Shown here piece after piece: positions 32,755 through 45,597 of a stretch of 64,000 bases of DNA. This DNA comes from Haladaptatus sp. ZSTT2. GTDB taxonomy: Archaea; Halobacteriota; Halobacteria; Halobacteriales; Halococcaceae. Location of the stretch: positions 2,418,001-2,482,000 of the forward strand of contig NZ_JBAMHQ010000001.1 in NCBI RefSeq assembly GCF_037081775.1, written 5' to 3'. Numbering within the stretch: the first letter of the stretch is position 1; each line of letters opens with the position of its first letter. Below the pieces are notes generated by a model. That model worked only from the letters and a program-made list of their open reading frames with translations, was not told where the DNA came from and ran no database searches. Made by a program: the position numbers and the translations under genes.

Positions 32755-34125
32755 TCAGTACTTCGGGTCTGCGCCGGTCGTTGCGTAGATATCGTCCATG
32801 ATGTCGTCGCGGGTTGCCTGCCACGATTCGAAGCCCATCGGTGAGGTCGGATACGTCTCGTAGTGAGTCAGCAGGTCGTCTGCGAGGTTCTTCGTCTTGT
32901 AGAAGTCATAGAGCGTCCCCCAGTAGCCGTAGCTTTTGAGCGCCGTCTGGAGTTTGAGGCCGAGGCCGACGTTCGCGCTGCCCGAGTAGAGCGCCTCTGA
33001 GAGTTTGTCCATCGGCAGCGCCGCCATCAGCCCTTGGAGCACGTCCGTGTCGTAGGCGGTGGTGAAAATGTTGTAGATGTCGAGGGCGGCATAGCGCCCG
33101 CCGAAGTGCTCCATAATGCGGGTGTTGTACCGCCAAAGCAGTTCCTCTGAGACGTCGCCCTGTTCGAGGGCTTTGATGGCCTGTTCGCCGGCGTACTTTC
33201 CGGCGTAGGCCGCGCCGGCGATGCCGCCGCCGGTGGTTGGGTTGACGTGGCCTGCAGCGTCACCAACCGCCATGTAGCCCTCTGCGACGGCCGAGTCGTA
33301 GGGACGACGCGTCGGCAGCGCCGCACCGAGTTTGTCGGTGACCTTCCCACCTTTGAACTCGGGGCGATTGCGGAGGTCTTGTTTCAGGTCCTCGACGAGC
33401 TTCATCGGCTGTTCGGTCATTTGGAAGCCAAGCCCGGCGTTGATTTCCGTCCCCGTGCGTGGGAAGTACCAGAGGTAGCCTGCCGCGCGTTTCGTTGGCT
33501 TGAACACGAGCGCGTCGCTCCACTCGACTTCGTTTGGCACTTCAATGATTTCGCGGTAGGCAGAACAGAACTGCGAGTAGCTGACATTCGTGTCGAACGT
33601 CGAGCCGTTGAAGTCGACCTTGTCCTGCAGGAGCGAGAGCGCGCCCGCGGCGTCGATGGTGATGTCGGCGTCGTACTCGACGACGTCGCCTTTGCGCTTG
33701 CTACGGACGCCCGTAACCCGGCCAGATTTGTCCTGAGTAACGTCCTGAACGACGGTGTCGTAGTGGAAGGTCGCCCCGGCTTCTTTTGCGCCTTTGATGA
33801 TGAGCCGTCCGTACTCCCAGCGGTCGATGACGGCGAGTTCGCCCGGAATCGGGATGTCGAGAACCACATCTTCCTGTGGAATCTCGAACCGGCCGTGGTC
33901 TACGTCCGTGTTGGTGAACGCCGGCATGATCTTTTCTTTCGGGATGGCTTCGGGGAAGGCGTCCGCGCCCTTGAGTGCGTCACCGCAGGCGATGTGCCCG
34001 GCTTCCTGTTCGGTCTTTCGCTCGATGACGACGACCTCGTAGCCCGCGTCTGCGAGGGTTGCTGCGGCGTAACAGCCTGACGTGCCTGCGCCAACGATGG
34101 CGACGTCAGGAGAATATGTGGTCAT
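32755..34125 (-). CDS. Geranylgeranyl reductase-family flavoprotein 1
   Basis: A 456-residue FAD enzyme of the digeranylgeranylglycerophospholipid reductase family, which saturates isoprenoid chains of archaeal lipids. The FAD Rossmann motif is GAGTSG (12-17). The active-site cysteine is Cys47 in IACGDALKG. The conserved GYLWYFPRTGTEINAG substrate-site motif and AVGDAAGHVNPTTGGG flavin motif follow. Start 34125 (MTTYSPD). It is divergent from a 2Fe-2S ferredoxin gene, a plausible electron donor. A paralogue lies at 41142-42515, and both end in PKY. Confidence 0.88.
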   Translation of the reverse strand: MTTYSPDVAIVGAGTSGCYAAATLADAGYEVVVIERKTEQEAGHIACGDALKGADAFPEAIPKEKIMPAFTNTDVDHGRFEIPQEDVVLDIPIPGELAVIDRWEYGRLIIKGAKEAGATFHYDTVVQDVTQDKSGRVTGVRSKRKGDVVEYDADITIDAAGALSLLQDKVDFNGSTFDTNVSYSQFCSAYREIIEVPNEVEWSDALVFKPTKRAAGYLWYFPRTGTEINAGLGFQMTEQPMKLVEDLKQDLRNRPEFKGGKVTDKLGAALPTRRPYDSAVAEGYMAVGDAAGHVNPTTGGGIAGAAYAGKYAGEQAIKALEQGDVSEELLWRYNTRIMEHFGGRYAALDIYNIFTTAYDTDVLQGLMAALPMDKLSEALYSGSANVGLGLKLQTALKSYGYWGTLYDFYKTKNLADDLLTHYETYPTSPMGFESWQATRDDIMDDIYATTGADPKY

Positions 34126-34153
34126 GCACACGATTGCTCCCCCAACGGAGAAA

Positions 34154-35381: not shown

Positions 35382-35551
35382 GCCAGCGCCGTTCAGCCCG
35401 TACTGGTTAGGGAAAACCTTCTTTTCACCCGCCGAGGTATGTCACACCAACCCACAGAATCAGGGTGATTCGATGTCGGCGCTCGTGGGGCGGGCGCCGC
35501 CAGTGGGTCTTCGGCGCAAGGATTTTAGACCGCGAGTGGCTACGATGGGCC

Positions 35552-35893
35552 ATGACATTCCAGCCCGGCGAGTCACTCAGCCAAGACGAAGTCACAGAAC
35601 GCGTAGACACGGCCATCGAGGACAACGAAGTCGTGCTGTTCATGAAAGGTAACCGGCTCATGCCCCAGTGTGGCTTTTCGATGCGCGCGGTCGAACTCAT
35701 CTCCCAGTACCGCGAGGACTTTGAGACGGTGGACGCGCTCGCCTCGCTCGACGAGTTCCGTGTCGCGCTCAAAGAACACAGCGGCTGGGAAACCATCCCC
35801 CAGACCTACGTGAACGGCGAGTTCATCGGCGGCAGCGACATTTTGGCCGAATTAGACAAACGTGGCGAGCTCGAAGCGGCGCTCGACGCCTGA
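35552..35893 (+). CDS. CGFS-type monothiol glutaredoxin family protein
   Basis: A 113-residue thioredoxin-fold protein with LFMKGNRLMPQCGFSM (Lys32, Cys40) and the IPQTYVNGEFIGGSDI glutathione-site pattern. CGFS glutaredoxins carry or insert Fe-S clusters. Haloarchaea use gamma-glutamylcysteine, so the thiol partner may differ. Start 35552. The 170 bases upstream contain a ten-codon mini frame at 35439 but no supported gene. A gggaga/tctccc hairpin follows the stop at about 35910-35930. Confidence 0.88.
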   Translation: MTFQPGESLSQDEVTERVDTAIEDNEVVLFMKGNRLMPQCGFSMRAVELISQYREDFETVDALASLDEFRVALKEHSGWETIPQTYVNGEFIGGSDILAELDKRGELEAALDA

Positions 35894-36062: not shown

Positions 36063-36653
36063 ATGACCAGCCGCGTATATCGACTCCATTCAACGCTCGA
36101 ACTGCCTCTCGAAGATGTCCATGAGTTCTTCGACAATCCAGAACTCCCCGAAGAAATCGCGGACATCGACATCACTCGACGCAATAACACGCTCATCATC
36201 AGCGCCGTCTCCGCTGATGACAGCATCAGCAAGTACACGCCAACGGCGCAGCTGAAAGCCAGCGTCACGGAAAACCGCGTGTACGAAGTCCCACTCGACG
36301 AGTGGAACAAAGCCCAGCGCGGCGGCGCACCCAACTGGGGAGCCGCCCAGCAAGAAGAGCAGGAAAAACCCCCATCCGAACTCGTCGAGTACGCCTGCTT
36401 CAAAGGCGACCGCGAGACTGTCTTACAAAATACCGCACTCCAGTACCCGATGTTCGAGGTGCTCTGCTCGCTCGCGAAGATTGCAGAGAAAGGCACGCTC
36501 ACGGCCATCTCGGCCGTGGACGACGACCTCGTCGCCACGCGCATCGTAGACGGCGAAGTCCGGCCAGCATCCATCGACGTCGTCGAGAACCCGACCGAAG
36601 ACGCCGCCTCGAAGAAAGGTGTCAACTGGCGCGACAACAAGTTCATCTCGTAA
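36063..36653 (+). CDS. Conserved haloarchaeal protein of unknown function (DUF7110-like)
   Basis: A 196-residue soluble acidic protein beginning MTSRVYRLHSTLELPLEDVH. It has two alpha/beta halves, the second with ACFKGDRETVLQNTALQYPM. There is no membrane segment, metal motif or nucleotide loop. From memory it resembles DUF7110, unverified. A TATA-like catataag (about 35989-35996) lies about 70 bases upstream, so this gene may have a short leader. Confidence 0.75.
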   Translation: MTSRVYRLHSTLELPLEDVHEFFDNPELPEEIADIDITRRNNTLIISAVSADDSISKYTPTAQLKASVTENRVYEVPLDEWNKAQRGGAPNWGAAQQEEQEKPPSELVEYACFKGDRETVLQNTALQYPMFEVLCSLAKIAEKGTLTAISAVDDDLVATRIVDGEVRPASIDVVENPTEDAASKKGVNWRDNKFIS

Positions 36654-36777: not shown

Positions 36778-37737
36778 ATGGCAACGAACTTCCCCGACTA
36801 CGTCACCGTCGATTACACCGACGGCGAAGGCGAGAACCCCGAAGATTACCCATCTATCGAGCATAAAATCGAGAAAGCAATCGAGGTCACCAAAAAGGGC
36901 CTCGAAGAGTACGAGAATCCCGCCATCATGTGGACCGGCGGGAAGGACTCGACGCTCGTGCTCTACTTCGTCAAAGAGGTCGCAGAGCGATTCGACCTCG
37001 ACATGCCGCCTGCGGTGTTCATCGACCACTTCCAGCACTTCGATGATCTGCTCGACTTCGTCGAACACTGGGCCGACGAGTGGGACGTAGAGGTCATCTA
37101 CGCCCGCAACGACGACGTTGGCTCGCTCGCAGACGAGCCGGGCGACACCATCAACGTCTCCGACCTGAACGAGCAGAACCAACACCACGTCCGCAACATC
37201 CTCGAATACGAGGAGGACACGTTCCCGTTCCTGCTCGACACCTACGTCGGCAACCACCTGCTCAAGACCGTCGCGCTCAACAACGCCCTTGAGGAGTACG
37301 ACATCGATGGCGTCATCTCCGGCATCCGCTGGGACGAACAGGAAGCGCGCGCAGACGAGACGTTCTTCAGCCCTCGACACGACCCCGACATCTACCCACC
37401 GCACGACCGCATTCAGCCGATTCTCCAGTTCGACGAGGCAGACGTGTGGGAAGCGTTCTGGAACTTCGTCGTCCCGGAGACGGTCGAAGGCTTCCCGGCA
37501 GAAGGCTACGTCCCACAGGACTACGACGACCTGCCAAACGGCCTGACGCACAAAGACATCCCGGTCAGCCCGAAGTACTTCGAAGGCTTCCGCAGCCTCG
37601 GCAGCGAAGTCAGCACCGAAAAGAGCGACACCGAGCCTGCATGGCTGCAGGACTTGGCCAACACGACCGAGCGCGCGGGCCGCGCACAGGACAAAGAAGA
37701 CCTGATGGAGCGCCTGCGCGACCTCGGCTACATGTGA
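36778..37737 (+). CDS. CysD-like PP-loop ATP pyrophosphatase 1
   Basis: A 319-residue PP-loop protein that would commonly be labelled PAPS reductase family. The PP-loop is TGGKDST at residues 53-59. It contains no cysteine at all, so it cannot be a CysH-type reductase. The RWDEQEARADETFF segment (184-197) and the C-terminal TTERAGRAQDKE...LGYM (296-319) align instead with CysD, the small subunit of ATP sulfurylase (RDEEKSRAKE and TSERQGR...GYF motifs). No CysN GTPase gene is nearby. It is the first of a tandem pair with equal length; the second copy starts 264 bases downstream. Confidence 0.8.
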   Translation: MATNFPDYVTVDYTDGEGENPEDYPSIEHKIEKAIEVTKKGLEEYENPAIMWTGGKDSTLVLYFVKEVAERFDLDMPPAVFIDHFQHFDDLLDFVEHWADEWDVEVIYARNDDVGSLADEPGDTINVSDLNEQNQHHVRNILEYEEDTFPFLLDTYVGNHLLKTVALNNALEEYDIDGVISGIRWDEQEARADETFFSPRHDPDIYPPHDRIQPILQFDEADVWEAFWNFVVPETVEGFPAEGYVPQDYDDLPNGLTHKDIPVSPKYFEGFRSLGSEVSTEKSDTEPAWLQDLANTTERAGRAQDKEDLMERLRDLGYM

Positions 37738-37757
37738 AGTCGGTCGGCTGACTTACA

Positions 37758-37782
37758 CCCGACAGCTGTCATCCCTGTCGGG
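37758..37782 (+). terminator. Hairpin after the first CysD-like gene
   Basis: cccgacag (37758-37765) and ctgtcggg (37775-37782) form a perfect 8-bp stem with a 9-base loop, 20 bases after the stop of the first CysD-like gene. It probably ends or attenuates that transcript before the second copy. Confidence 0.45.
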
Positions 37783-37788
37783 CTCCGT

Positions 37789-37911
37789 TCACGCTCCCAC
37801 GGTGGCATACTCGGGGTCTGGGGAGGCTCCGACACACGCATGGTTGGGTTCCACACTCGCCACCGAGGAGTCGGCTTTTTCCGTTTTCACGCCCGTGAGC
37901 TGTGCTGCCAT
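37789..37911 (-). CDS. Possible 40-residue small protein between the two CysD-like genes
   Basis: An ATG at 37911 opens a 40-codon frame (MAAQLTGVKTEKADSSVASV...) ending at a TGA at 37789. Third positions are mostly G/C, as in neighbouring genes, and the product is Ala/Val/Ser-rich with one cysteine. It would be divergent from the second CysD-like gene. No family is recognised, and an open frame of this size can arise by chance. Confidence 0.25.
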   Translation of the reverse strand: MAAQLTGVKTEKADSSVASVEPNHACVGASPDPEYATVGA

Positions 37912-38001
37912 GGTGTGTCGAGTAAGCAGTGCCAACCGACTGTCCGTAGCCCGGTAGGCAGCCCATACCAATATGCCGCGGGCGCGCAAATGCAGATACC
38001 A

Positions 38002-38961
38002 ATGCCTGAAGGGTTTCCTTCGTATCTCAGCGTAGACTACGAAGACGGTCACTCGCAGAGCGCCGCAGACTACCCAAGCGTAGACGAGAAGATTGCAAAG
38101 GCAATCAACGTCACCCAGACCGCGCTCTCGCAGTACAAGAACCCCGCCATCATGTGGACCGGCGGGAAGGATTCGACGCTCGTGCTCTACTTCGCAAAGG
38201 AAGTGGCAGACGAATTCGGCTACGAGATGCCGCCGGTCGTGTTCATCGACCACTACGAACACTTCGACGACGTGACGGCGTTCGTCCACCACTGGGCCGA
38301 CAAGCTCGATTTAGACCTCATCATCTCGCGCAACGAGGACTTCGCCCGCCTCGGCGCATCGCCGGGCGACGAGATTCTCGTTTCTGACCTGAGCGCGCAA
38401 AACCAGCGCGAACTGCGCGACCGGCTCGACCACACCGACGACACGTTCGTGCTCTCTGCGGATTCGTACGCGGGCAATCACCTGCTCAAGACCGTCGCGC
38501 TCAACAACACCATCACCGAACACGACATCGACGGCGTGTTCTCCGGCGTGCGCTGGGACGAACAGGACGCCCGCAAGAATGAGACCTTCTTCAGCCCGCG
38601 CCACGACTCGGAGAAGTACCCGCCACACGACCGGGTGCACCCGATTCTCCAGTTCAACGAACGGTCGCTCTGGGACGCCTTCTGGTACTACCTCGTCCCC
38701 GACCTCGTGGCCGACTACCCACAGGAAGGCTACGTGCCACAGGGCTACGACGACCTGCCGAACGGCCTGACACCAGAAGACCTGCCGGTTGGGCCAAAAT
38801 ACTTCGAAGGTTTCCGCAGCCTTGGAACCTCAAAGGGTTCTGCGAAGAGTGACGACCGCCCGGCGTGGCTCCAGGACTTAGAGCACACCACCGAACGCGC
38901 CGGTCGCGCCCAGGACAAAGAGGGGCTGATGGCGCGCCTGCGCGACCTCGGCTACATGTGA
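38002..38961 (+). CDS. CysD-like PP-loop ATP pyrophosphatase 2
   Basis: The 319-residue tandem paralogue of the preceding PP-loop protein, with the same TGGKDST loop, RWDEQDARKNETFF and TTERAGRAQDKE...LGYM signatures and again no cysteine. The ATG at 38002 gives exactly the same length as copy 1 and aligns from the first residue; ATG 37990 would add four residues. Divergence is concentrated in the region after the PP-loop (ISRNEDFARLGASPGDE). Adenylylation of sulfate or another oxyanion, or activation of a different substrate, is possible. Confidence 0.8.
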   Translation: MPEGFPSYLSVDYEDGHSQSAADYPSVDEKIAKAINVTQTALSQYKNPAIMWTGGKDSTLVLYFAKEVADEFGYEMPPVVFIDHYEHFDDVTAFVHHWADKLDLDLIISRNEDFARLGASPGDEILVSDLSAQNQRELRDRLDHTDDTFVLSADSYAGNHLLKTVALNNTITEHDIDGVFSGVRWDEQDARKNETFFSPRHDSEKYPPHDRVHPILQFNERSLWDAFWYYLVPDLVADYPQEGYVPQGYDDLPNGLTPEDLPVGPKYFEGFRSLGTSKGSAKSDDRPAWLQDLEHTTERAGRAQDKEGLMARLRDLGYM

Positions 38962-41141: not shown

Positions 41142-42515
41142 TCAGTACTTCGGGGTCGCGCCCGTGATTCGGTACACGTCGTCCATCACGGCGTCGCGCG
41201 ACTCGCGCCACGACTCGAACCCGCTCGGGTCGTCTGGGTACTCGTCGTACACGCTCCGCAGTTCGTTTGCCTTCTGTTGGACCTTATAGAGCTCGTAGAG
41301 GACGTTCCAGTGTCCGATGGTCTTGAGCGCGGTTTTGACTTTGAGGCCGAAACTCATCGATGCCGTGCCTTCTTTGCCAAGCGTGTCGAGGAGCTGTTGG
41401 CCCGGCAGCGCACTGATGACCTTCACGAGTTCGTTCACGTCGTGGGCCCCACCGAAGATGTTGTAGATGTCCATCGCCGCAAACCGTTTGCCGAAGTCCT
41501 GCATCACGCGCTGGTTGTAGTTCCAGAGGTTTGCTTCGGTCACGTCGCCTTCGCTGATTGCGTCGATGGCTTCGAGCGCGGCCCAGTGGCCGGCTTTCGC
41601 CGCACCCGGAATGCCGCCGCCCGTCGTTGGGTTGACGTGGCCCGCGGCGTCGCCCACCGCGATGTAGCCGTTTGCGGTCGCAGAATCGTACGGCCGCCGG
41701 GTCGGCAGCGCCGCACCGAGCTTGTTCTTGATTTTCGCGCCGTCGAATTCAGGGCGCGAGCGAATGTCGTTTTTCAACACCTCGACGAGCTTCATCGGCG
41801 GCTTGTTCATCTGGAAGCCAAGCCCGACGTTGATTTCCGTCGGCGAACGTGGGAAGTACCAGAGGTAGCCCAGTTCTTCGGTTGGCTTGAACACGATGGC
41901 GTCGTGGTAGTCAACCGGCTCTTTCGTGATGAGCACTTCCCGGTAAGCAGAACAGAACTGCGAGTAGCTCACCTTGGTGTCGAAGGTAGTGTTCGAGAAG
42001 TCGACTTTGTCCTGGAGCAATGAAAGGGAACCGGCGGCGTCAATGACGATTTCTGCCTCGTAGTTTTTAACGTTCCCTTTTCGCGTCGTCGTGACGCCGG
42101 TGACCCGCCCGCTGTCGTTTTGGATGACATCGCGGACGACCGTGTCGTAGTGAATCTCTGCACCGGCGCGCTCTGCTTCTTCGAGCAGCACCTCGCCGTA
42201 ACGCTTGCGGTCTACGACTGCTCCCGGTGCCCGGAACGGGATGTCCAAGTGCGACTCGGTCAGCGGGTTCTCGAAGCGCGCTTTCAGGATGTTCTCGTTC
42301 GTGAACGATTCGGCCCGGAGATACTCGCGGTCGATGACGTCGGGGAACGTACTTTTCCCCTTGATTGCATCACCACAGGCAATCATGCCACCATCCTCTC
42401 TGGACTTCCGCTCGAGAATAACGACGGAGAGACCCTCGTTTGCAGCCGTAGCGGCCGCAAAGGTCCCGGAGGTGCCACCCCCAACAATGATAATATCGTA
42501 GCGTTCGGCTGCCAT
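41142..42515 (-). CDS. Geranylgeranyl reductase-family flavoprotein 2
   Basis: A 457-residue paralogue of the flavoprotein at 32755-34125. The FAD motif is GGGTSG, the active-site cysteine is Cys47 in IACGDAIKG, and the signatures GYLWYFPRSPTEINVG and AVGDAAGHVNPTTGGG are kept. Start 42515 (MAAERYDIII); the frame open to 43136 runs antisense through korB and is rejected. A T-rich box (ttaaaaaaac, 42539-42548) is 24 bases upstream. Its place beside korAB suggests coupling to reduced ferredoxin. The two copies may differ in substrate, such as lipid versus quinone side chain. Confidence 0.86.
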   Translation of the reverse strand: MAAERYDIIIVGGGTSGTFAAATAANEGLSVVILERKSREDGGMIACGDAIKGKSTFPDVIDREYLRAESFTNENILKARFENPLTESHLDIPFRAPGAVVDRKRYGEVLLEEAERAGAEIHYDTVVRDVIQNDSGRVTGVTTTRKGNVKNYEAEIVIDAAGSLSLLQDKVDFSNTTFDTKVSYSQFCSAYREVLITKEPVDYHDAIVFKPTEELGYLWYFPRSPTEINVGLGFQMNKPPMKLVEVLKNDIRSRPEFDGAKIKNKLGAALPTRRPYDSATANGYIAVGDAAGHVNPTTGGGIPGAAKAGHWAALEAIDAISEGDVTEANLWNYNQRVMQDFGKRFAAMDIYNIFGGAHDVNELVKVISALPGQQLLDTLGKEGTASMSFGLKVKTALKTIGHWNVLYELYKVQQKANELRSVYDEYPDDPSGFESWRESRDAVMDDVYRITGATPKY

Positions 42516-42538
42516 TACACCCACTATACCGTCGGGTC

Positions 42539-42874: not shown

Positions 42875-43738
42875 TCAGTAGAACTCGCGGACGAGGTCCA
42901 TTGCGCCTTCCGGCGGCTTGTCCTCGATTTGGGACATGTCCTCTGAGATGCCCCAGCGTTCCTCGAACGGAACCGAGTTCTCGTCTTTGTAGATGACGCC
43001 CATGTACTCCTTTTCGGAGTCGAAGATGACGTCCTTCGCGGCGTCTTTGTCCGTTGGGTCGTGGTCTTCTTCTTTGAGGTCCACGAGCGAGTCGCGGAAG
43101 TAGTCGTAGGTGTCCACGTCGTTGAACGTGACACACGGACTGTAGCAGTTGACGAACGCGAAGCCGGGGTGCTCGATTGCCTGTTTGATGATCTCGACAT
43201 GACGCAGTGCGTCAGAGGAGAACGACTGGGCGATGAACGTGCCACCCGCAGCGAGCGCGAGCGCGTGTGGGTTGACCGGGGCCTGCATCGGGCCATCGGG
43301 CGTCGTTGAGGTCTCGAAGTCCTCACGGCTGGTCGGGGATGCCTGTCCCTTCGTCAGCCCGTAGATGCGGTTGTCCATCACGACGTACGTCATGTTGACG
43401 TTCCGGCGAACGGCGTGGACGAAGTGGCCCGCGCCAATCGAGAAGCCGTCACCGTCGCCACCCGCAACCATCACTTCGAGGTTCGGGTTTGCGAGTTTGG
43501 CACCGATGCCAACGGGGAGGGCGCGACCGTGGACGCCGTGCAGCGCGTAGCTGTGCATGTACGTCCCGATTTTGCCCGAACAGCCAATCCCGGCGACCAA
43601 GAACGTGTTGTCCGGGTCGTTGCCGGTTTCGGCGAGGCCTTTCATCATGCCGTTCATCGTCCCGAAGTCACCGCATCCGGGACACCAGGTCGGCTGCTTG
43701 TCGGATTTGAAATCAGTGAATCGAACGTCGGAGCTCAT
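42875..43738 (-). CDS. korB: 2-oxoacid:ferredoxin oxidoreductase, beta subunit
   Basis: A 287-residue thiamine-diphosphate subunit. The TPP/Mg site is GGDGDGFSIGAGHF followed by VVMDNRIYGLTKGQ. The 4Fe-4S ligands include Cys19 and Cys22 (WCPGCG), the cysteine in GIGCSGKIG and that in NCYSPCVTF. Subunit size (287 with a 587-residue alpha) fits the haloarchaeal 2-oxoglutarate enzyme (Kor) better than pyruvate synthase, whose beta subunit is longer. Its ATG overlaps the korA stop (ATGA). Confidence 0.85.
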   Translation of the reverse strand: MSSDVRFTDFKSDKQPTWCPGCGDFGTMNGMMKGLAETGNDPDNTFLVAGIGCSGKIGTYMHSYALHGVHGRALPVGIGAKLANPNLEVMVAGGDGDGFSIGAGHFVHAVRRNVNMTYVVMDNRIYGLTKGQASPTSREDFETSTTPDGPMQAPVNPHALALAAGGTFIAQSFSSDALRHVEIIKQAIEHPGFAFVNCYSPCVTFNDVDTYDYFRDSLVDLKEEDHDPTDKDAAKDVIFDSEKEYMGVIYKDENSVPFEERWGISEDMSQIEDKPPEGAMDLVREFY

Positions 43739-45498
43739 GGGGTTGCCTCCACAGACTCGGAGAGAGCCTGTTTAATTTTTGCTGCCAGCTCGTCTGCCTT
43801 GAAGCGGACACCGTTGTACTTGTTTAGGCGCTTTACGCGGCGAAGTGCGTCGTGTTCGATGAGGTCTGCGAACTGACCGGTCGCGTTACATTCGACGACG
43901 ATAACGTCGTCTGCAGCGGCGATTTCCTCGGTCAGATCTGGCCGTGGGAAGATGTACGGCACAGAGAGGAAGCGCACGGAGACGTCGTCTTCTTCGAGGA
44001 ACTCCATCGCCTCGCGGATTGCGCCTTCGTTCGACCCCCACGAGATGACGAGATTACCGGAGTCTGCGTCACCGAACTCGCGTGGCGACCAGTCTTCGTT
44101 TTCGATTGCCGTCTCGACTTTGCGGTTGCGCTTGTCGACCTGTTCTACGCGCATATCCGTGTCCTCGGTACGACGACCGAGTTCGTCGTGTTCGAGACCA
44201 GTGGACATGTGCGCACCGCCTTTCGTGCCGGGGAACGCGCGCGGCGAGACGCCGTCTTCGGTGAGCGCGTGTGGCTTGAACTGCTGTTTGTCGTTGACCC
44301 ACTCGCCAAGGGACTCTTCGTCGACAACCTTGCCGCGGTCGATTTCGACCTTGTCCATGTCGAACTCTTCCGGTGGGAAGGTCTGTTCGCTCACGGCGAG
44401 CGCGAGGTCTGCGGCCAGATAGACCGGCGTCTGGTACTTTTCTGCTAAGTTGAACGCTTCGACGGTCTTGTGGAAACACTCGGAGATGCTCGTTGGCGTG
44501 AGGACGAAGCGCGGAATCTCGCCATGGCCGCCGTAGAGCATCTGATTTAAGTCGCCTTGCTCTTGCTTGGTTGGCATCCCAGTGGATGGGCCAGAGCGCA
44601 TGACGTTCGTGATGACGAGCGGCGTCTCGCTCGTTGCGATGAGGCCAAACGTCTCGGTCATGAGGTCGATGCCCGGCCCAGAGGTTGCGGTCATCGAACG
44701 GGCACCGGCGCGCGCCGCACCGAGGGCCATGTTGATGGCGGACAGTTCGTCCTCTGCCTGGACGACAGCGCCACCGAACTGCTCTACGCGTCCGGTCATG
44801 TACTCCATGACGTTGGTCGCGGGCGTGATTGGATAGCCAGCGTAGAACCGACAGCCAGCCGCGATTGCGCCCATGCCAATCGCCTCGTCACCGTTCAATA
44901 GCACGTAGTCTGCGTCGGTGGTTTCGAGTTCGTAATCGAGGTCTAAGTCGTAGTTCTCGCGGACGTACTCCTGGCCCGCGCGCGCGGCTTTCGAGTTGTT
45001 CTCGACGATGGAGCCACCTTTCTGTCCGAATCGCTTTTCGAGCGATTCATCGAGGTTCTCGATGGGGAACTCGGAGACTTCACACGCCGCGCCGAGAGCG
45101 ACGATGTTCTGCATGATGGCTCCCCCGGCCTCTTCTGCGAGGCGGCGAAGCGGGACGTTCAGCCCAATCATGCCGTCTGGGGCTTCGAAGTCCTTCATCG
45201 TAGTTCGCTCACCGTCGTAGATGATGACCGAGCCCTCGTGGAGCTCTTCCATGTTCTCTTCGACCGTGCGTTGGGTCAGTGCAATCAGAATGTCGAGTCG
45301 GTCTACGACACTCTCGACGCGGTCGACCGAGGTTCGAATCTTGTATGCGGTGTAGCCACCACGAATACGCGATGCGAAGTCTTTGGATGTAAAGACGTGT
45401 CGGCCTGCGCGAGAGAGTGCCTGGGCGAAAATCTTCCCAGTGGAGTCGATTCCATCGCCGGCTTCACCGCCGATGGCCCAGTTCAGGTCCTCTGGCAT
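43735..45498 (-). CDS. korA: 2-oxoacid:ferredoxin oxidoreductase, alpha subunit (gamma-alpha fusion)
   Basis: A 587-residue chain. Residues about 1-180 are the gamma domain (GGEAGDGIDSTGKIFAQAL, RGGYTAYKIRTS). The alpha domain follows (NGDEAIGMGAIAAGCRFYAGYPITPATNVMEY region), and the C-terminal transketolase-like domain carries SWGSNEGAIREAMEFL. With KorB it oxidises a 2-oxoacid to acyl-CoA and CO2 while reducing ferredoxin. Start 45498 (MPEDLNWAIGG); a caaaagg box at 45527-45533 is 29 bases upstream. Substrate (2-oxoglutarate) is inferred from family size. Confidence 0.86.
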   Translation of the reverse strand: MPEDLNWAIGGEAGDGIDSTGKIFAQALSRAGRHVFTSKDFASRIRGGYTAYKIRTSVDRVESVVDRLDILIALTQRTVEENMEELHEGSVIIYDGERTTMKDFEAPDGMIGLNVPLRRLAEEAGGAIMQNIVALGAACEVSEFPIENLDESLEKRFGQKGGSIVENNSKAARAGQEYVRENYDLDLDYELETTDADYVLLNGDEAIGMGAIAAGCRFYAGYPITPATNVMEYMTGRVEQFGGAVVQAEDELSAINMALGAARAGARSMTATSGPGIDLMTETFGLIATSETPLVITNVMRSGPSTGMPTKQEQGDLNQMLYGGHGEIPRFVLTPTSISECFHKTVEAFNLAEKYQTPVYLAADLALAVSEQTFPPEEFDMDKVEIDRGKVVDEESLGEWVNDKQQFKPHALTEDGVSPRAFPGTKGGAHMSTGLEHDELGRRTEDTDMRVEQVDKRNRKVETAIENEDWSPREFGDADSGNLVISWGSNEGAIREAMEFLEEDDVSVRFLSVPYIFPRPDLTEEIAAADDVIVVECNATGQFADLIEHDALRRVKRLNKYNGVRFKADELAAKIKQALSESVEATP

Positions 45499-45597
45499 TG
45501 TCGGTGATGGGTTTGCTGTACCGGTGCAAAAGGCTTCTGAATCAGTCAGTAAACTGGGAACGAAAGTGCATTTGCCGATAACCCACATGTGTGGGGT

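Follow-up and report, generated by a model that had tools for sequence, protein, structure and literature searches.

Two neighbouring genes of a near-complete haloarchaeal genome encode PP-loop proteins that contain no cysteine and are annotated in databases as belonging to the PAPS reductase family. Haloarchaea have been reported to be without the APS/PAPS sulfate pathway, yet Natrinema J7-2 grows on sulfate alone, and the Natrinema genome paper proposed direct reduction by sulfite oxidoreductase (PMC3402447). Both genes lie in the window, i.e. the whole analysed stretch of 64,000 nucleotides (G000:C1:2418001-2482000), to which positions below refer unless a contig or locus is named. PP1, a stand-alone CysD-like PP-loop protein, is encoded at 36778..37737 (+ strand) and PP2, its tandem paralogue, at 38002..38961 (+ strand). 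The two products are 319 amino acids long and 64% identical from end to end, and neither contains a cysteine, confirming the first-pass annotation, which had described two cysteine-free copies of this length. The length of PP2 applies to a start at the ATG at 38002; the ATG at 37990 would add four residues, and the mechanical ORF starts at 37840. The intergenic gap is 264 bp and ranged from 120 to 1569 bp among relatives. At the local cysteine frequency of 1.0%, taken from 17 neighbouring proteins, the chance that both proteins are free of cysteine is about 0.0014; among 100 relatives, 93 had none and seven had one.

Both proteins were matched by the Pfam family PF01507 (E=1.3e-17 for PP1) and by NCBIfam CysD models. 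The PP-loop ATP motif TGGKDST of PP1 (36934..36954, + strand; residues 53-59) is intact as in CysD and degenerate in APS/PAPS reductases, and the C-terminal tail ERAGRAQDKEDLMERLRDLGYM (37669..37734, + strand; residues 298-319) is of the CysD type and replaces the ECGLH tail of the reductases. The loop and the TTERAGR...LGYM tail had been pointed out before and were found as described; the segment RWDEQxARxxETFF, which had likewise been called C-terminal, is in fact central (residues 184-197). TGGKDST, RWDEQ, AQDKE and the terminal LGYM were each present in 102/102 family members, and the catalytic-cysteine motif CGLH (E-C-G-L-H) was found in none of them. The best NCBIfam models were those of CysD (82 bits for PP1, 80 for PP2), with the best CysH models scoring 30 and 18 bits, respectively; DndC was not among the NCBIfam matches listed. 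The CysD cut-offs were nevertheless missed by a wide margin (82 versus 195 bits for NF003587, 61 versus 397 for TIGR02039), which would allow for a different substrate.

In a maximum-likelihood tree, the haloarchaeal proteins and two Desulfolutivibrio proteins formed a group (100/98) that was sister to nine CysD sequences (95/84), with the reductases apart, although the program warned of long branches among the latter. PP1 and PP2 are thus placed in a sister group outside the canonical CysD clade and not inside the reductase (CysH/APR) clade; a position within CysH, raised in the first-pass annotation as a finding that would speak against its reading, was examined by means of this tree. The alignment, which took in E. 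coli CysH and five bacterial APS/PAPS reductases, gave a similar picture: among the residues invariant in haloarchaea, 20 were common to CysD only, three to reductases (APR) only and 13 to both, one of the 13 being the initiator methionine. All aligned reductases had a degenerate PP-loop and a CGLH-type tail, and all except E. coli CysH had cysteine pairs. The [4Fe-4S] cysteines of the APR type (CC and GCxxC) are missing from PP1 and PP2, their alignment positions being occupied by GN and GSEVS/GTxxGS. By tblastn, the alignment of PP1 with CysD extended to residue 318, and the ERAGR...LGYM tail is common to anaerobic-type CysD proteins of archaea with an adjoining CysN-type GTPase (G209, G142, G212) and also occurs in CysD of Ilyobacter and Gemmatirosa. 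The core of the structural model matched PAPS-reductase-fold enzymes including CysD (1zun_A, TMt 0.64). Foldseek listed reductases, FAD synthase and also CysD as top PDB matches, so the predicted fold alone does not discriminate between these enzymes. The intact TGGKDST, the missing CGLH tail and the tree argue that, as judged from sequence, PP1 and PP2 are not PAPS/APS reductases, that the label 'PAPS reductase', found throughout the class, is wrong, and that the proteins are relatives on the CysD side, a stand-alone variant of CysD. On the label and on the likeness to CysD, the earlier annotation was borne out.

Characterised CysD works together with CysN, and it is CysN that couples the hydrolysis of GTP (PMC4373884). 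No CysN gene adjoins PP1 or PP2, as had been noted before, and this now holds for the genome, whose only full-length CysN-like genes are two EF-1A genes, and for the 97 haloarchaeal genomes searched by profile, none of which had a CysN above the cut-off (0/97). The two matches found elsewhere in the genome (301 and 290 bits) were rejected as CysN, since they are EF-1A, as in each of the 97 genomes. The search for a CysN homologue elsewhere in the genome, which the first-pass annotation had named as a finding that would speak against it, gave none; the one caveat is the divergent paralogue of EF-1A that tends to accompany PP2 (see below).

Stand-alone relatives were found in two genomes of the family f18, on two Desulfolutivibrio plasmids and in the genome G123. 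The f18 genomes are of low GC, belong to the same phylum as haloarchaea and are probably Methanonatronarchaeia, as far as their GC and gene content suggest. Ahead of HLLKT, the haloarchaeal proteins and the stand-alone relatives share an insertion of about 35 residues that is missing from CysD and the reductases; it is one of two clade-specific insertions in PP1 and PP2, the second of which occurs in haloarchaea only. Neither f18 genome nor G123 had a CysN above the cut-off. As this cut-off is strict (archaeal CysN beside CysD in G209 and G142 also scores under it), the absence of CysN in these genomes rests on each having a single EF-1A-like gene. The stand-alone set is not uniform, as the f18 proteins still have the cysteines of CC and GCKPCT and receive their highest scores from CysH models; in the tree, they branch outside the CysD and haloarchaeal group. 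Viral contigs yielded no relatives, and a single match in a phage collection proved to be a bacterial chromosomal CysD.

PP1-type genes were present in 96/97 haloarchaeal genomes and in 382/392 of a larger draw, with 75-86% identity between the proteins across the class, and Natrinema genomes are among those that carry PP1. PP2 was found in 11/97 genomes and in about 45/392 (table read by eye), i.e. about 12%. Most genomes thus carry PP1 alone (86/97 are without PP2), and the hetero-oligomer of the two copies proposed in the first-pass annotation, if obligate, is not supported. Canonical Sat was found in 3/97 genomes and APS kinase in 6/97 at a cut-off of E<1e-40, the many weaker matches mostly covering only part of the profile. 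A gene of the NIR_SIR family (sulfite or nitrite reductase) was present in 82/97 genomes; 14 of the 15 genomes without one retain PP1, indicating that sulfate reduction is not its sole role. Among the 97, PP1 is missing from a single genome, G021, where genes for Sat and APS kinase lie next to one that is transposase-like. Sat occurred in 2/10 PP1-lacking genomes of the larger draw and in 2/96 with PP1 (Fisher p=0.04), the numbers being small and the draws different. Good-quality genomes without PP1 numbered 8/392, and seven of the eight were also without Sat, indicating that PP1 is dispensable in some lineages. Several good-quality genomes without PP1 and Sat (G232, G294, G383, G460, G472) belong to one genus that usually has PP1.

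We propose, at about an even chance of being right, that PP1, together with its tandem paralogue PP2, is a putative stand-alone, GTPase-independent enzyme of the ATP sulfurylase type. For the activation of sulfate in haloarchaea, no better candidate than PP1 is at hand, and we regard this assignment, too, as about as likely as not. Counting against it are the pairing of CysD with CysN in characterised systems, the lack in this genome of a candidate APS or PAPS reductase that could use the APS, and the small number of genomes (6/97) with a true APS kinase. The ancestry, the retained ATP motif, the loss of the reductase cysteines, the lack of CysN, the near absence of Sat and the near-universal distribution were observed here; we infer that sulfate is the substrate, that APS is the product and that no GTPase is needed in the cell. 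ATP would be bound by the PP-loop TGGKDST, and the oxyanion would be held, and the site closed, by the conserved residues R184, D186-E187, R191, R200 and R211 and the ERAGR tail. ATP and sulfate would then yield APS and pyrophosphate, CysN not being required. Haloarchaea inhabit sulfate-bearing brine, and at high sulfate the CysN-free reaction could run with the help of pyrophosphatase and APS consumption. The enzyme descends from the CysD side, with the Desulfolutivibrio stand-alone proteins as nearest relatives and without the CC and GCxPCT of anaerobic-type CysD, and may supply APS for sulfation and/or assimilation in haloarchaea, nearly all of which are without Sat and CysDN. A literature search, mostly of papers outside subscription, yielded none that assigned PP1 to sulfate activation.

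Sulfated glycolipids are well known in haloarchaea. PP1-type genes on plasmids (L177, L178; Halopiger, Natrinema) were observed amid genes for glycosyltransferases, sulfatase, aglF/aglM and flippase, and this glycan-gene setting counts for sulfate activation because sulfation would be used there. APS kinase without Sat in the genomes G022, G057 and G087 was not counted as proof of APS made by PP1. In G022, APS kinase and an HxGH nucleotidyltransferase domain (PF01467) form a fusion protein, and this domain might itself make APS as an alternative ATP sulfurylase; the kinases of G057 and G087 are similar in length and sequence. In these genomes, which have neither Sat nor CysN, APS kinase is clustered with a sulfotransferase (L190 in G022, L191 in G087, L192 in G057), and the cluster of G022 also contains a YqcI/YcgG protein. 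Haloarchaeal APS kinases (L173, L174) end in a motif like RLxxLGYL/M, similar to CysD and PP1, and small RHH/CopG-like proteins near CysD-like genes end in RLxxLGYL/M (L169:8605-8850, L170:8260-8535, L171:11490-11720, L172:10420-10674). This ending may be a shared docking tail.

The substrate could also be something other than sulfate: another oxyanion or a tRNA or cofactor precursor might be adenylated by a protein of CysD ancestry with changed specificity. The strong conservation across the class and the 14 genomes that keep PP1 without a NIR_SIR-family gene would fit such a housekeeping role, as would the two clade-specific insertions and the scores far below the CysD cut-offs. However, CysD-specific residues are kept, including those around the presumed sulfate site, and the absence of the gene from some genomes runs contrary to an essential housekeeping function; we regard a non-sulfate substrate as possible but rather unlikely. 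Much less credible is a role as APS/PAPS reductase that dispenses with an enzyme cysteine and draws on an external reductant such as glutaredoxin or gamma-glutamylcysteine. The database label, the PF01507 match and a fold that matches APR and CysH would agree with it, and the genome is otherwise without a candidate for an APS/PAPS reductase, the only PF01507 matches above the cut-off being PP1, PP2 and an NcsA-like protein. A glutaredoxin gene is often a neighbour of PP1, and gshA adjoins it in Natrinema, but the latter arrangement was seen in only 2-3/80 loci, and no link to gshA was drawn from it. Also against a reductase, CGLH is missing from every family member, GGKDST is retained where the aligned reductases have a degenerate PP-loop, and both the tree and the residues side with CysD.

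A further alternative concerns PP2 and the divergent second EF-1A of the genome, EF-1A-B (G000:C1:95133-96395, in L196, G000:C1:91000-100500), which is not linked to PP2; together they might be a re-invented CysDN, with PP1 acting alone. In favour of this, CysN arose from archaeal EF-1A (PMC4342817). The EF-1A-B sequences form one clade in the tree (99/95, 26 rows), and extra EF-1A copies from genomes without PP2, where placed, fall elsewhere, with the exception of G246. Despite the lack of linkage, PP2 was present in 34/37 genomes with EF-1A-B versus 11/355 others, spread over three families (Fisher test), in counts made by eye from tables of genomes that are not independent and show strong genus effects. 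The remaining three of the 37 comprised two genomes with an untyped second family member and one with none. Against this pairing, PP2 occurs without a second EF-1A in the family f9 (seven genomes), in two g2 genomes and in one f3 genome, and G246 has EF-1A-B without PP2. Moreover, the identity of EF-1A-B to canonical EF-1A is 83-87%, almost every invariant column is intact, and the protein may simply act in translation like any other EF-1A; for this reason, the partnership is not the best reading, and we consider it improbable. That EF-1A-B was recruited as the GTPase of PP2 independently of the EF-1A transfer behind bacterial CysN, PP1 acting alone, appears less probable still. The co-occurrence possibly reflects a CysN-like partner or simple co-inheritance. 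The reading of PP1 as a stand-alone ATP sulfurylase-type enzyme was preferred.

Upstream of PP1, the window contains genes for a DUF7110 protein (36063..36653, + strand; PF23422, E=1.4e-96) and a Grx4-type monothiol glutaredoxin (35549..35893, + strand; Pfam/NCBIfam match and synteny), which were found upstream of PP1 in 56/80 and 42/80 loci, respectively. Although both are frequent there, the region is syntenic anyway, and no function was inferred from them. Two genes of the geranylgeranyl-reductase family flank the PP1/PP2 region (32755-34131 and 41142-42521), and 2-oxoacid:ferredoxin oxidoreductase genes lie by them at 42875-45501.

For the activation step that is missing, PP1, a near-universal and mislabelled relative of CysD, offers a concrete candidate whose gene is easy to delete. 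Should this be borne out, a CysD-type ATP sulfurylase would be able to act without its GTPase, and the class-wide label 'PAPS reductase' would be corrected. Among known systems, CysH and APR share with PP1 and PP2 the PF01507 fold and the core residues R184, R191, R299, G301 and R302, but have no GKDS PP-loop and carry CGLH-type tails and mostly cysteine pairs, reductase traits that PP1 and PP2 do not show. Homo-oligomeric Sat with APS kinase, as in G021, would perform the same first step, but Sat is an unrelated protein and was found in only 3/97 haloarchaeal genomes. With CysD (1zun_A; TIGR02039, NF003587), PP1 and PP2 share the GKDS PP-loop, RxDE..R, SPR, R-x-HP and the ERxGR...GY tail, as well as full-length alignment and a sister clade; unlike CysD, they have no CysN in the neighbourhood or genome, carry the pre-HLLKT and haloarchaea-only insertions, contain no cysteine and score below the cut-offs. 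The f18 proteins differ from PP1 and PP2 by their four cysteines (CC, GCKPCT), shorter length and best scores to CysH models, and the Desulfolutivibrio proteins by having no second insertion, but both resemble them in the pre-HLLKT insertion, the tail and a neighbourhood free of CysN-type genes.
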